This document shows positions 10,455 to 62,871 of a stretch of 64,000 nt of DNA, piece by piece. A model generated the notes under the pieces. That model was given only the letters and a program-made list of their open reading frames with translations. It was not told the DNA's origin and made no database searches. How positions within the stretch are numbered: the first letter of the stretch is position 1; the number at the start of each line of letters is the position of its first letter. The DNA comes from Mycobacteroides salmoniphilum (GTDB lineage: Bacteria; Actinomycetota; Actinomycetes; Mycobacteriales; Mycobacteriaceae). The position numbers were made by a program, and so were the translations under genes. The stretch covers positions 868,001-932,000 of the forward strand of contig NZ_CP024633.1 in assembly GCF_004924335.1 (NCBI RefSeq), given 5' to 3'.

Positions 10455-10492
10455 TGTGCCCTCGGCAGGATTCGAACCTGCGACACCGGCTT
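10455..10492 (-). repeat. attR, tRNA-Arg 3' end
   Basis: Perfect 38-bp match to 4246-4283, overlapping the 3' portion of the intact tRNA-Arg(CCU) gene. This is the crossover-containing segment of the island's right end, 81 bp from the integrase remnant. Confidence 0.88.
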
Positions 10493-10529
10493 TAGGAGAG
10501 CCGTGCTCTATCCCCTGAGCTACGAGGGC
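10457..10529 (-). tRNA. tRNA-Arg (anticodon CCU)
   Basis: The 73-nt cloverleaf on the minus strand folds fully: acceptor GCCCTCG with CGAGGGC, D-arm GCTC/GAGC, anticodon stem CGGCT/AGCCG around loop CTCCTAA (anticodon CCT), T-arm GCAGG/CCTGC with loop TTCGAAT, discriminator A. CCA is not encoded. It is the integration target of the 6.2-kb island, and its 5' flank is duplicated at 28551-28602. A TAGAGT -10 candidate lies at 10558-10563 (minus strand). Confidence 0.95.
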
Positions 10530-58985: not shown

Positions 58986-59867
58986 CTATTGGTTGGCGCA
59001 GGTGACCCATCGGCTGCTGATCCGGGCGAACCCTGCGACACCGGTCTTGGTCTCGGTCTTTCCGCCGGCCGATGCGGTGATCGTCACCCGCGATGAGGCG
59101 GTGTCGCCATTGACGACCGACTTTTCGACCTTGTCCACGTTGATCTTCAGATCGTCGGGCTGACCCTCAAGGTCCGCGTCGGTGATCGTCACGCAGGACA
59201 GCGCGTTGAGCACGTCGAGGTTTTTGGCGCCGAGCGCGGCATAGAACGCCTTGAGCACGTTCGTGAGCTCGCGCTCCTCCTCCTTGGTCGACTCACGTGG
59301 CACCGACGAGGTGGTGGGGCCCGGCACCGAGATGCTGGTGGTCGCGGGTCCCGTGTTCGACGTCGTCGTCGAGGTCGAGGTCGAGCGTCCGGTGCTGGTG
59401 GGCGTGCTGGAAGAGCTGGTGGCGATCGTGGTGGTGCTGCTGGTCCTGGTCCGTGACTTTGTGGTGGTCGTCGTCGTGCTGCTGGTCGGCGCCTCGGGGT
59501 TCACGAGAGGCACGCCGAGCTTCACGGTGGGGCGCGATAGGGGTGTGTCTTCGATCGTCCGGTTGTTCTCGATCCAGAGCCCTACGGCCACCGCCGTCAC
59601 CGCGACCAGGCAGAGCGCCAGCACTCCGATGACGATCTTGGTGGCGTGCCTGGCGACGAACCTGCGTGTGGGCGTCGGTTCGGCGGCGACGGCGGCCTCC
59701 AGGTCGTAGTCCACCGACTCGTCGTCGCCGTCCTTCGCTGTGCCGTCCTTCGGTGCGGGTTTGTCCGTTGCGACCTCGTCATGGGAGGGGACGTTCTTAC
59801 CCTCGGCCTCCGGGGTGCCGGCACCGGTGACGTCGGGCTTGTCCTCGGCCTTGTCTTGGTCGCTCAA
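58986..59867 (-). CDS. Single-pass membrane protein with Ser/Thr-rich stalk
   Basis: A 293-aa protein from TTG 59867 behind AGGGAGG. Acidic cytoplasmic N-terminus (1-75), membrane helix at about 78-98 (IVIGVLALCLVAVTAVAVGLW), a Ser/Thr-rich stalk (about 128-195, Thr runs), and a small C-terminal domain of about 95 residues with two Cys (ALSCVTI, WVTCANQ). The stalk is probably glycosylated. Resembles the mycobacterial Mce-associated and similar small extracytoplasmic domains; not named. Confidence 0.65.
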   Translation of the reverse strand: MSDQDKAEDKPDVTGAGTPEAEGKNVPSHDEVATDKPAPKDGTAKDGDDESVDYDLEAAVAAEPTPTRRFVARHATKIVIGVLALCLVAVTAVAVGLWIENNRTIEDTPLSRPTVKLGVPLVNPEAPTSSTTTTTTKSRTRTSSTTTIATSSSSTPTSTGRSTSTSTTTSNTGPATTSISVPGPTTSSVPRESTKEEERELTNVLKAFYAALGAKNLDVLNALSCVTITDADLEGQPDDLKINVDKVEKSVVNGDTASSRVTITASAGGKTETKTGVAGFARISSRWVTCANQ

Positions 59868-59897: not shown

Positions 59898-60200
59898 TTA
59901 GTGTCCCAATCTGCCGCGACCCAGGCGCAGCAGCAGCATGGCCAGAGTGTGGCCTTCTTGGCCTAGTTCGCTGAAGCGTTCGAGGACCTTCATCTCGCGG
60001 CTGTGCACAAGGCGCGGGCCACCGGAGGCCATCCGGGCCTTACCGATTTCGCGGGAGACCTCGGTGCGCCGCTTGATCGCGGACAGGATCTCCGCGTCGA
60101 GCCGGTCGATCTCCTTGCGCAGCTCATCTATATCGGGCGCGGGCTCGGTAGCTTCGCCGATATCTTTTTGGCTGGCGTTCTCGGTCATTTGAGTAGTCAT
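59898..60200 (-). CDS. Chorismate mutase (AroQ-delta type)
   Basis: A 100-aa intracellular chorismate mutase, homologous in order and size to Rv0948c. IDELRKEIDRLDAEILSAIKRRTEVSREIGKARMASGGPR shows the long first helix with the active-site Arg and Lys, and VHSREMKVLERFSEL the second active-site region. Enzymes of this type are weak alone and activated by DAHP synthase. ATG 60200 (or 60188). The 5' region has a leader peptide and hairpins typical of attenuation by Phe/Tyr. Confidence 0.93.
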   Translation of the reverse strand: MTTQMTENASQKDIGEATEPAPDIDELRKEIDRLDAEILSAIKRRTEVSREIGKARMASGGPRLVHSREMKVLERFSELGQEGHTLAMLLLRLGRGRLGH

Positions 60201-60270
60201 TCTGTCTCACACTTTCTCTTGGAGCGGTTCGATCCGCAATGCCGCCCCGGAATCGGGCCTCACAAGAGAG

Positions 60271-60343
60271 GAGCCCCGTAGTCCGGTAGCGGACTGCGGG
60301 GCTCGTGAATCGGCTAGACCACGGGCACCGGAGTCCGGTACCC
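60271..60343 (-). promoter_or_regulatory. Attenuator-type hairpins before chorismate mutase
   Basis: Reading the minus strand, hairpin 1 (60343-60323) pairs GGGTACCGG with CCGGTGCCC (8 of 9). Hairpin 2 (60304-60271) pairs GAGCCCCGCAGTCCG with CGGACTACGGGGCTC (14 of 15). TACCGGACT occurs both in hairpin 1 and in the loop and right arm of hairpin 2, so the left arm of hairpin 2 can pair with either. There is no U-tract, so hairpin 2 could act on transcription or translation. Confidence 0.7.
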
Positions 60344-60373
60344 GTAGAAAAATCGCTGCTGGTGGTCAAGCAC
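60314..60373 (-). CDS. Leader peptide of chorismate mutase (19 aa, FFYGY)
   Basis: A 19-codon frame from GTG 60373 to TAG 60314, encoding MLDHQQRFFYGYRTPVPVV. Four of residues 8-12 are Phe or Tyr, the end products of the chorismate mutase branch. A -10 TACACT (minus strand, plus coordinates 60381-60386) lies 7 bp before the GTG, so the mRNA would be leaderless and translation would start at its first base. The peptide ends just before hairpin 2. It fits a classical ribosome-stalling leader. Confidence 0.68.
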   Translation of the reverse strand: MLDHQQRFFYGYRTPVPVV

Positions 60374-60462
60374 ATCGAAGAGTGTAGCCGAGATGCGAGG
60401 AACGCTTGCGGGAAGTGCGTCAGGCCGAGATTGTCCCTCGTCAGCGGTAAGTTAGATCGGTC

Positions 60463-62871
60463 ATGGCGAATCTTTCTGAACCAGCACTTTTTGATATGCC
60501 CAGCGCCTCGGGTTCCCACAGCGAGGCGTTGCTCGAGGGGCTGAATCCGCAGCAGCGGGCCGCCGTCGCGCACGAGGGGTCGGCGCTGCTCATCGTCGCC
60601 GGCGCCGGGTCCGGCAAGACCGCGGTGTTGACCCGTCGAATCGCCTACCTGCTGGCCGAGCGGGACGTGAGCCCGGGGCAGATCCTGGCCATCACCTTCA
60701 CCAACAAGGCCGCCGCCGAGATGCGCGAGCGCGTCGCGAACCTCGTGGGCCGGCGTGCCAACTCGATGTGGGTGTCGACGTTCCACTCCAGCTGCGTGCG
60801 CATCCTGCGGAATCAGGCCTCACTGCTGCCCGGATTGAACTCCAACTTCTCGATTTACGACTCCGATGACTCACGGCGGCTGTTGCAGATGATCGGCCGC
60901 GATATGGGCCTGGACATCAAGCGCTACTCACCACGGCTGCTGGCGACCGCCGTCTCCAACCTGAAGAACGAGCTCATCTCGCCGGAGCAGGCGGTGGCCA
61001 ACCTCAGCGTCGATGATGAGGCCGGTGAGCTACGCCGAATCGTCGCCGATGTGTACGGCGAGTACCAGCGGCGCCTGCGTGCGGCCAACGCTCTGGACTT
61101 CGACGATCTCATCGGTGAGACGGTCGCCGTGCTGCAGCAGTTCCCGCAGATCGCGCAGTTCTACCGCCGCAAGTTCCGGCACATCCTGGTTGACGAGTAT
61201 CAGGACACCAACCATGCCCAATACATACTGGTCCGCGAACTGGTAGGTGCTCACGTGGACCGTACGGTCGATCCGGACAGCCCGGAACCGGCGGAGCTGT
61301 GCGTGGTGGGTGACGCCGACCAGTCCATCTATGCCTTCCGTGGTGCCACGATCCGCAACATCGAAGAATTCGAGCGCGACTATCCGAATGCGAAAACCAT
61401 TCTGCTGGAACAGAATTATCGGTCCACGCAGAACATATTGAGCGCGGCCAATGCCGTCATTGCCAAGAACACGAACCGCAGAGAAAAGCGGCTGTGGACC
61501 GATTCCGGCGAGGGCGAGCTGATCGTCGGCTACGTCGCGGACAACGAACATGATGAAGCGTCCTTCATCGCCCGCGAGATCGACGGACTCTTCGATCGCA
61601 GCGACGCCAACTATGGCGACGTCGCGGTGTTCTACCGCACCAACAACAACTCCCGGTCGCTCGAAGAGATCTTCATCCGAACCGGTATCCCCTACAAAGT
61701 TATTGGGGGAGTGCGGTTCTACGAGCGCAAGGAAATCCGCGACATCGTCGCCTACCTGCGGGTGCTGACCAACCCGGGCGATGCGGTGAGCCTACGGCGG
61801 ATCCTCAACACTCCTCGCCGGGGCATCGGGGACCGGGCCGAGGCGTGTGTTGCCGTACACGCGGAGACAGCCGGCATCGGTTTCGGGGAAGCGCTCGCGG
61901 ATGCCGCCGCGGGCAAGGTCGCGATGCTGAACTCTCGCTCCGAGAAGGCGATTGCCGCCTTCATGGACATGCTCGACGAGATTCGCGCCACCCTACGCAC
62001 CGATCCGGGGGCATTACCGGATATCGGCGATGTGGTCGACGCCGTGCTCAACCACACCGGGTATCGATATGAACTGGAGAACAGCAGCGACCCCCAGGAG
62101 CTGGCACGTCTCGATAACCTCAACGAATTGGTCAGCGTCGCACACGAATTCAGTGCGGATGCGGCAAATGCCCAGGCAGCTGGGGAAGACCTGCCGGTCG
62201 ACGACGAGGATGTCGGCGCGCCCCCGGGGAGTCTCGAGGCGTTCCTGGAGCGGGTGTCGCTGGTCGCCGATGCCGACGAGCTGCCCGAATCGACCGCCGG
62301 TGTGGTCACGATGATGACTCTGCACACCGCCAAGGGGCTGGAGTTCCCGGTGGTCTTCGTGACCGGCTGGGAGGACGGCATGTTCCCGCACATGCGTGCC
62401 CTCGGCGATCCGGTGGAGCTGGCCGAGGAACGTCGACTTGCCTACGTCGGGATCACGCGGGCGCGTCAGCGGCTATATCTGAGCCGGGCCAAGGTGCGCT
62501 CGTCGTGGGGGCAGCCCATGATGAACCCGGAATCGCGCTTCCTGCAAGAGATTCCGCAAGATCTGATCGAATGGCGGCGCACCGATCCGCTGCCAGGGCG
62601 CATCGCGACCGGCGCCGGAAGCTACGGCGGCGGGGGCTATGGGTCCAGTGGATCACGCGGAGGCGGCGGCTCGCTGGGTGCTCCGTCCAAAAAGCGCACC
62701 AAGCCGCTGCTGGTGCTGGAGCCCGGTGATCGGGTGAGCCACGACAAGTACGGGCTGGGCAAGGTCATGGAGGTGACTGGTGTCGGCGAGAGCGCCACAT
62801 CGCTCATCGACTTCGGCAGCGACGGGCGCGTGAAGCTGATGCACAACTTCGCGCCCGTGCAAAAGCTTTAG
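60463..62871 (+). CDS. uvrD1: UvrD1/PcrA-type DNA helicase
   Basis: An 802-aa SF1A helicase. Motifs: Q NPQQRAAVAH, I AGAGSGKTAVLTRRIAYLL, Ia ITFTNKAA, II VDEYQDTN, III GDADQSIYAFRG, IV NYRST, V TLHTAKGLEFPVVF, VI YVGITRARQRL. The C-terminus has a Gly-rich linker and a Tudor-like domain (GDRVSHDKYGLGKVMEV) as in PcrA, which binds RNA polymerase. Functions in nucleotide excision repair and with Ku. Corresponds to Rv0949. Confidence 0.96.
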   Translation: MANLSEPALFDMPSASGSHSEALLEGLNPQQRAAVAHEGSALLIVAGAGSGKTAVLTRRIAYLLAERDVSPGQILAITFTNKAAAEMRERVANLVGRRANSMWVSTFHSSCVRILRNQASLLPGLNSNFSIYDSDDSRRLLQMIGRDMGLDIKRYSPRLLATAVSNLKNELISPEQAVANLSVDDEAGELRRIVADVYGEYQRRLRAANALDFDDLIGETVAVLQQFPQIAQFYRRKFRHILVDEYQDTNHAQYILVRELVGAHVDRTVDPDSPEPAELCVVGDADQSIYAFRGATIRNIEEFERDYPNAKTILLEQNYRSTQNILSAANAVIAKNTNRREKRLWTDSGEGELIVGYVADNEHDEASFIAREIDGLFDRSDANYGDVAVFYRTNNNSRSLEEIFIRTGIPYKVIGGVRFYERKEIRDIVAYLRVLTNPGDAVSLRRILNTPRRGIGDRAEACVAVHAETAGIGFGEALADAAAGKVAMLNSRSEKAIAAFMDMLDEIRATLRTDPGALPDIGDVVDAVLNHTGYRYELENSSDPQELARLDNLNELVSVAHEFSADAANAQAAGEDLPVDDEDVGAPPGSLEAFLERVSLVADADELPESTAGVVTMMTLHTAKGLEFPVVFVTGWEDGMFPHMRALGDPVELAEERRLAYVGITRARQRLYLSRAKVRSSWGQPMMNPESRFLQEIPQDLIEWRRTDPLPGRIATGAGSYGGGGYGSSGSRGGGGSLGAPSKKRTKPLLVLEPGDRVSHDKYGLGKVMEVTGVGESATSLIDFGSDGRVKLMHNFAPVQKL

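Follow-up and report, generated by a model that had tools for sequence, protein, structure and literature searches.

A candidate leaderless Phe/Tyr attenuator upstream of chorismate mutase in mycobacteria and related Actinobacteria

Chorismate mutase (CM) is the gene committing chorismate to Phe and Tyr. Here we report that the leader of a mycobacterial CM gene is, with high confidence, a ribosome-mediated transcription attenuator sensing charged tRNA-Phe and tRNA-Tyr, and that CM is very probably upregulated when Phe and Tyr run short. The argument draws on the sequences themselves, on their conservation and covariation, on the exclusivity and geometry of the structures in folding, and on the mostly joint loss of the parts.

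In the window (the whole 64-kb stretch of DNA that was analysed), a gap of about 260 bp on the minus strand separates a divergent uvrD-like gene, which starts at 60463 on the plus strand, from the regulated gene at 59898..60200 (minus strand), a CM of 100 aa (PF01817, TIGR01808, NF005894). All elements of the leader lie on the minus strand. A -10 element, TACACT (60381..60386), stands 7 nt upstream of a GTG at 60373, and a leaderless transcript is predicted; the GTG opens a leader peptide ORF of 19 codons, MLDHQQRFFYGYRTPVPVV (60314..60373), which ends in TAG at 60316-60314. This frame, its FFYGY run and the placement of the -10 element had been noted in a sequence-only reading of the window, and a base-by-base check of the strand agrees with it. 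The putative regulatory codons TTT TTC TAC (Phe Phe Tyr; 60344..60352), directly followed by GGG TAC, abut and enter the 5' arm of a protector hairpin, P1 (60321..60345), which is identified by folding, conservation and compensatory change. The left arm of the candidate antiterminator, CGGACTCCGG (60328..60337), lies within P1, and its right arm, CCGCAGTCCG (60290..60299), is the left half of a terminator-like hairpin, T (60271..60304; -26.5 kcal/mol); 3' of T there is a pyrimidine-rich tail, CTCTCTTGTG (60261..60270), which makes a weak U-tract. Both hairpins, P1 within the leader (60345-60321) and T (60304-60271), were found where the earlier reading had placed them, but the earlier wording 'just before the gene' needs a small correction for T, since 70 nt lie between its 3' end and the CM ATG at 60200. 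Also 3' of T, the sequence TGTGAGGCCCG (60254-60264, minus strand) is conserved in the mycobacterial alignment A1 almost as well as the hairpins, and it might pair with the right arm of T. Downstream of CM by 30 nt there is a frame for a 293-aa Ser/Thr-rich protein with a TTG start (58986-59867, minus strand), which may be co-transcribed with CM.

The 173-nt leader folds more stably than 200 of 200 shuffled sequences (z -4.6), and its minimum-energy fold contains both P1 and T. A scan of the 64-kb window asked for three things in combination: a -10 box, 8-40 codons of leaderless frame that include 4/5 aromatic codons, and downstream of them a hairpin at -18 kcal/mol or lower. The CM leader was the single site combining all of these (15 leaderless frames examined), and 40 Markov controls of 64 kb gave one qualifying site among 1391 frames. 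Because the scan criteria are post hoc and the site was already known, conservation is the stronger test. No Rfam leader family (Phe, Trp or others) and no T-box riboswitch matched in the window at the curated score; the sole Rfam match there at the gathering score is a tRNA gene (10457-10529, minus strand).

CM was detected in 60 of the 61 genomes searched, and 80 of 275 loci were kept from named genomes. The leader frame is present at 38 of 39 mycobacterial CM loci (L001-L039, one of which is the window's; Mycobacteroides franklinii, Mycobacteroides chelonae, Mycolicibacter senuensis and Mycolicibacter heraklionensis are among the named species), and at the same 38 loci a -10-like box lies 6 or 7 nt upstream of the ATG or GTG that opens the motif-bearing frame. 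ORF lengths in multiples of three follow by construction, starts having been sought in frame. FFYG is retained in 33 of the 38 leaders, and the rest have FPYG, FFDG, FLYG, FYCG and one rebuilt aromatic-rich stretch. An RNA model, R1, built from the 38 sequences, finds a match in 176 of the 198 genomes that represent the genus (166 of 185 good ones); loose motif searches, which also match inside coding sequence, were left unused. In Mycolicibacter senuensis (L036) the leader carries a 12-nt insertion, RRFCFSNSYGQWYAEPVV, and is aromatic-rich nonetheless.

The one exception among the 39 loci, L015, lacks the leader. Here and in L228, L231, L234 and L235, the match to CM starts 15 nt past the -10 box, and therefore CM itself starts there and the leader is gone; such natural deletions of the whole leader appear to abut the CM start to the -10 box, which would render CM leaderless. 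L233 resembles these loci by eye. R1 is negative in 22 genomes of the genus, and among the 20 of these that were listed CM is present in 17 (the misses are G003, G094 and G150). In a sample of 108 distinct mycobacterial loci, deliberately enriched for losses and drawn from related genomes so that the events are not independent, T occurs together with three aromatic codons at 67 and with a smaller number at 11 (two codons at nine of these); three loci keep the codons but no T, and 27 are without either feature under this rule. Some mycobacteria have lost the leader as one unit. In L221, and perhaps L232, a terminator-like hairpin T persists and the aromatic codons are absent.

Covariation points to the same structures. 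Over 76 loci, 92.9% of cells in P1 and T are paired, double changes occur at 13 of 23 pairs, and 89 double-change cells are observed against 24.0 in shuffles, figures to be read with the facts that the loci were hand-picked as intact-looking, that the alignment was fitted to the structure and that the shuffles ignore relatedness; structures with slid partners are just 32-48% paired on those loci. One P1 pair, formed by the third position of the Gly codon, occurs as G-C, A-U, U-A and C-G, and the terminator hairpin between leader and gene is likewise conserved with compensatory changes. A comparison of orthologues for the FFYGY codons and for compensatory changes in both hairpins, which the sequence-only reading had proposed as a check, was thus run on mycobacteria and beyond and bore that reading out; together with the frame at 38 of 39 loci, it supports a Phe/Tyr attenuator.

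In each of the 38 mycobacterial sequences, 7-9 of the 10 positions of the antiterminator, which would exclude T, are paired; on both arms the letters of Mycobacteroides depart from those of the other mycobacteria. The repeat that had been proposed to enable alternative pairing, TACCGGACT, is indeed present in two copies in the window (60340-60332 and 60288-60280, minus strand), but it is limited to Mycobacteroides, and the antiterminator of other lineages is spelled differently. When left and right arms were permuted among six groups, own-group pairing summed to -97.4 kcal/mol, whereas the permutations averaged -84.0; permutations as low as the true one, itself included, numbered 2 of 720 with six groups and 2 of 120 with the five larger groups. 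L168, L201, L213 and L222, in which hairpin T was mis-called, and single-member groups had been dropped beforehand. A T-excluding antiterminator is supported in mycobacteria and in the families f4, f14 and f16; in f2, f5, f7, f9 and f11 a group's arms pair with each other no better than with those of other groups.

The transcript start, translation, termination and amino-acid response of the CM leader are predictions from sequence and folding models, and they have the three-hairpin logic of E. coli pheA-type attenuators. RNA polymerase would start at the GTG and a ribosome would initiate on the leaderless 5' end. With ample Phe and Tyr, the ribosome would reach the TAG and cover the left arm of the antiterminator, T would form, and most transcripts would stop upstream of CM. 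With scarce charged tRNA-Phe (or tRNA-Tyr, which is less well placed), the ribosome would stall at TTT TTC TAC and mask the 5' arm of P1, after which pairing of the left antiterminator arm with the left half of T would delay T, and CM would be transcribed. Without translation, P1 and T would form. Masking the bases that a ribosome on the first Phe codon or on the second would cover made the antiterminator the best fold up to the T loop (-24.0 kcal/mol), and in both cases it arises before the right arm of T is made; it was weaker with the ribosome at the first Tyr (-15.4 kcal/mol) and absent at the second Tyr or the stop. These masking results suggest that sensing would fall mainly to the Phe codons, which are the best placed, and less strongly to the first Tyr. 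In masked folding, a ribosome placed on the regulatory codons breaks up the P1 protector. In the full-length RNA, T wins in all masked states, and the switch must therefore be kinetic, decided during transcription of T.

Other readings of the leader have to be weighed against this one. In translation attenuation, transcription would not terminate, and the stalled ribosome would instead alter how accessible the ribosome-binding site of CM is, as has been reported for mycobacterial cysteine genes behind poly-Cys short ORFs (accessible text of PMC13236596; also PMC4633059). We consider this improbable for CM: the 70 nt that separate T from the CM start leave no overlap, so that T cannot hide the start; in f4 and f2, where the U-tract is clear, 4-6 T in a row follow the hairpin (mostly about 3 in f14 and f16). 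Termination at T has the U-tract against it in mycobacteria, where this is weak (about 5 T among 10 nt), and more so in f14 (3.9). It is just as improbable that an arrest peptide, that is, a conserved peptide stalling in the exit tunnel on free metabolite (Phe, Tyr or prephenate), is at work. The residues past the aromatic run are well conserved among mycobacteria, but the same stretch also encodes P1, and it varies widely elsewhere (YGNRTPAPVIA, YGHRDPVSVTAG, WRYFTCPGPRCT); since P1 is kept paired in the aligned set while the peptide diverges, RNA pairing can explain the conservation.

The strong terminator-like hairpin would free a short RNA of about 110 nt, so the frame might be incidental to a constitutive early terminator or to a leader-derived small RNA, but the codons and T are mostly retained or lost jointly at the 108 mycobacterial loci, which makes this less probable still. 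Finally, the conserved block might be a DNA site serving the divergent uvrD-like gene, a UvrD match being found at 112 of 121 mycobacterial loci. We give this reading hardly any weight, because the compensatory changes sit on RNA pairs and because the UvrD start was not found in 62 of 71 distant loci, where the upstream stretch is short (about 200 nt).

The transcription attenuator that we favour is also found beyond mycobacteria. Within the order, 164 of 298 genomes have an R1 match, representing 53 of 76 genera, at a threshold of E 0.05 at which some matches are perhaps due to chance. Among 60 fetched matches, mostly distant, CM lies downstream in 51 (tblastn with the window's CM as query; CM downstream of L198 and L201 is neither confirmed nor excluded); re-detection of R1 in 60 of 60 follows by construction. 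Five further matches adjoin CM by position (G042, G043, G046, G056 and G059), and L217 and L218 were set aside as CM leaders because CM is located elsewhere. Examples of distant leaders are RFFYGNRTPAPVIA, FFFFYGNRTPAPVVA, QFYYGYRPPVPVSG, EFYFGYRTPVPVSG and SFFYGHRDPVSVTAG. A wider model, R2, has matches at E 0.001 in 96 of the 394 genomes from the class, and in the window's own genome it found no second copy (beyond two plus-strand matches at the same locus, E was at least 0.013). Of 40 additional fetched R2 matches, 14 are upstream of CM and 12 upstream of a DAHP-synthase-like gene; the 14 beside neither gene, some of which adjoin tRNA genes by eye, were taken as false, and part of the 164 (R1) and 96 (R2) genome matches may therefore be false. 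Eight of the 14 matches preceding CM come from one genus with genomes of 6.8-9.9 Mb, in which three of eight leaders are TFLFTYGNRPTGCHGRAA and the others are alike. At 71 loci titled Nocardia, Rhodococcus, Williamsia and similar, no R2 match was found before CM in 62, and in the other nine, all Rhodococcus or Prescottella, the match is correctly placed before CM; the leader of Rhodococcus erythropolis is LWRYFTCPGPRCT. Nocardia CM loci (among L044-L110) have a different recurring 5' block upstream, GGTCTGTTTCACGGTGAAAGAACCGGTCGGTAACG and similar, and the CM locus of L043, titled Kitasatospora arboriphila, is near-identical to Williamsia muralis L041 and L042, so the title may be wrong.

The codon content of the leaders tracks the branch: DAHP synthase supplies Phe, Tyr and Trp, whereas CM serves Phe and Tyr only. 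An attenuator of the CM-leader type precedes a DAHP-synthase-like gene in 12 loci, all of family f31 (L269, L275-L283, L285 and L296); the 12 downstream proteins share a similar N-terminal start, and the two that were scanned are DAHP synthases (PF00793 and PF18152). Their leaders read like MQRNFWRFYGYRP, MRTAWSFWYGDGP and MRTAFLFWYGDGP, and Trp stands alongside Phe and Tyr in 12 of 12, whereas Trp is found within the last six codons before Gly in 11 of 129 parsed CM-type leaders. These 129 were preselected for an aromatic codon before Gly and at least two aromatic codons in three, so that an aromatic last codon before Gly in 129 of 129 holds by construction and is not evidence, the FFYG count in mycobacteria (33/38) being less biased; for some of them, e.g. 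L129, L198 and L201, CM is not confirmed in the fetched stretch. Before this count, L049, L054, L056, L061, L062, L063, L067 and L100 (Nocardia loci, wrong site), L203 (wrong site) and L220 and L165 (terminator gone) were dropped. We consider it reasonably likely that one ancestral family of leaderless aromatic attenuators extends across much of the class, with a shared P1/terminator frame and a codon block retuned per target, Phe/Tyr for CM and Phe/Trp/Tyr for DAHP synthase.

The proposed CM attenuator is widely conserved and was not described in the literature searched, and the type of device is already known from aroR of Corynebacterium glutamicum. The earlier reading knew of no such attenuator for AroQ-type CM genes; that holds for the literature searched, but a Phe-Tyr-Phe attenuator is known before the DAHP synthase gene of C. 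glutamicum (as covered in the review PMC11802643). No description of the CM leader was found in literature on attenuation (mycobacteria, Actinobacteria, Streptomyces, Corynebacterium), on Rv0948c or on chorismate mutase, a weak absence, as subscription papers lie mostly outside this coverage. 'Rv0948c' and 'chorismate' are absent from the main text of PMC13236596, and chorismate has no mention in the accessible text of Naville 2010 (PMC2965389). In the accessible part of the Streptomyces lividans reannotation, eight leader peptides are given, Phe not among them. The accessible text of the 2005 survey of actinobacterial amino-acid genes by Seliverstov (PMC1262725) reports that no conserved RNA regulatory structures were seen ahead of Phe and Tyr operons; the CM leader would be such a structure, found in 176 of the 198 genomes sampled from the genus and in many more genera. 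Mycobacterial CM is poorly active without its partner DAHP synthase (abstracted from PMC4281200), and control of its expression would add one more layer. The relatives that lack the leader are natural controls, and the prediction is easily tested.

Several known systems resemble the CM leader in part. In mycobacteria, the ilvB1 attenuator of M. tuberculosis likewise consists of a uORF with a terminator/antiterminator switch but has branched-chain amino acids as its signal (accessible text of PMC13236596), and the poly-Cys uORFs are likewise leaderless regulatory short ORFs but respond to cysteine (accessible text of PMC4633059); for the latter, Seliverstov 2005 found no conserved terminator hairpin (accessible text of PMC1262725). 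By its description, the aroR leader of C. glutamicum, before aroF (DAHP synthase), is also an actinobacterial leader with Phe-Tyr-Phe and precedes another gene; transcription rises under Phe limitation (Neshat 2014, via the review PMC11802643), and according to the same review Tyr availability has no effect. In the pheA (pheL) and pheST attenuators of E. coli, charged tRNA-Phe controls a leader peptide (as outlined in PMC11802643). The CM leader shares with pheA (pheL) a leader peptide, the proposed control by tRNA-Phe and a CM-containing gene product; in contrast to pheA and pheST, it is predicted to be leaderless, carries Phe and Tyr codons and precedes a stand-alone AroQ-type CM.
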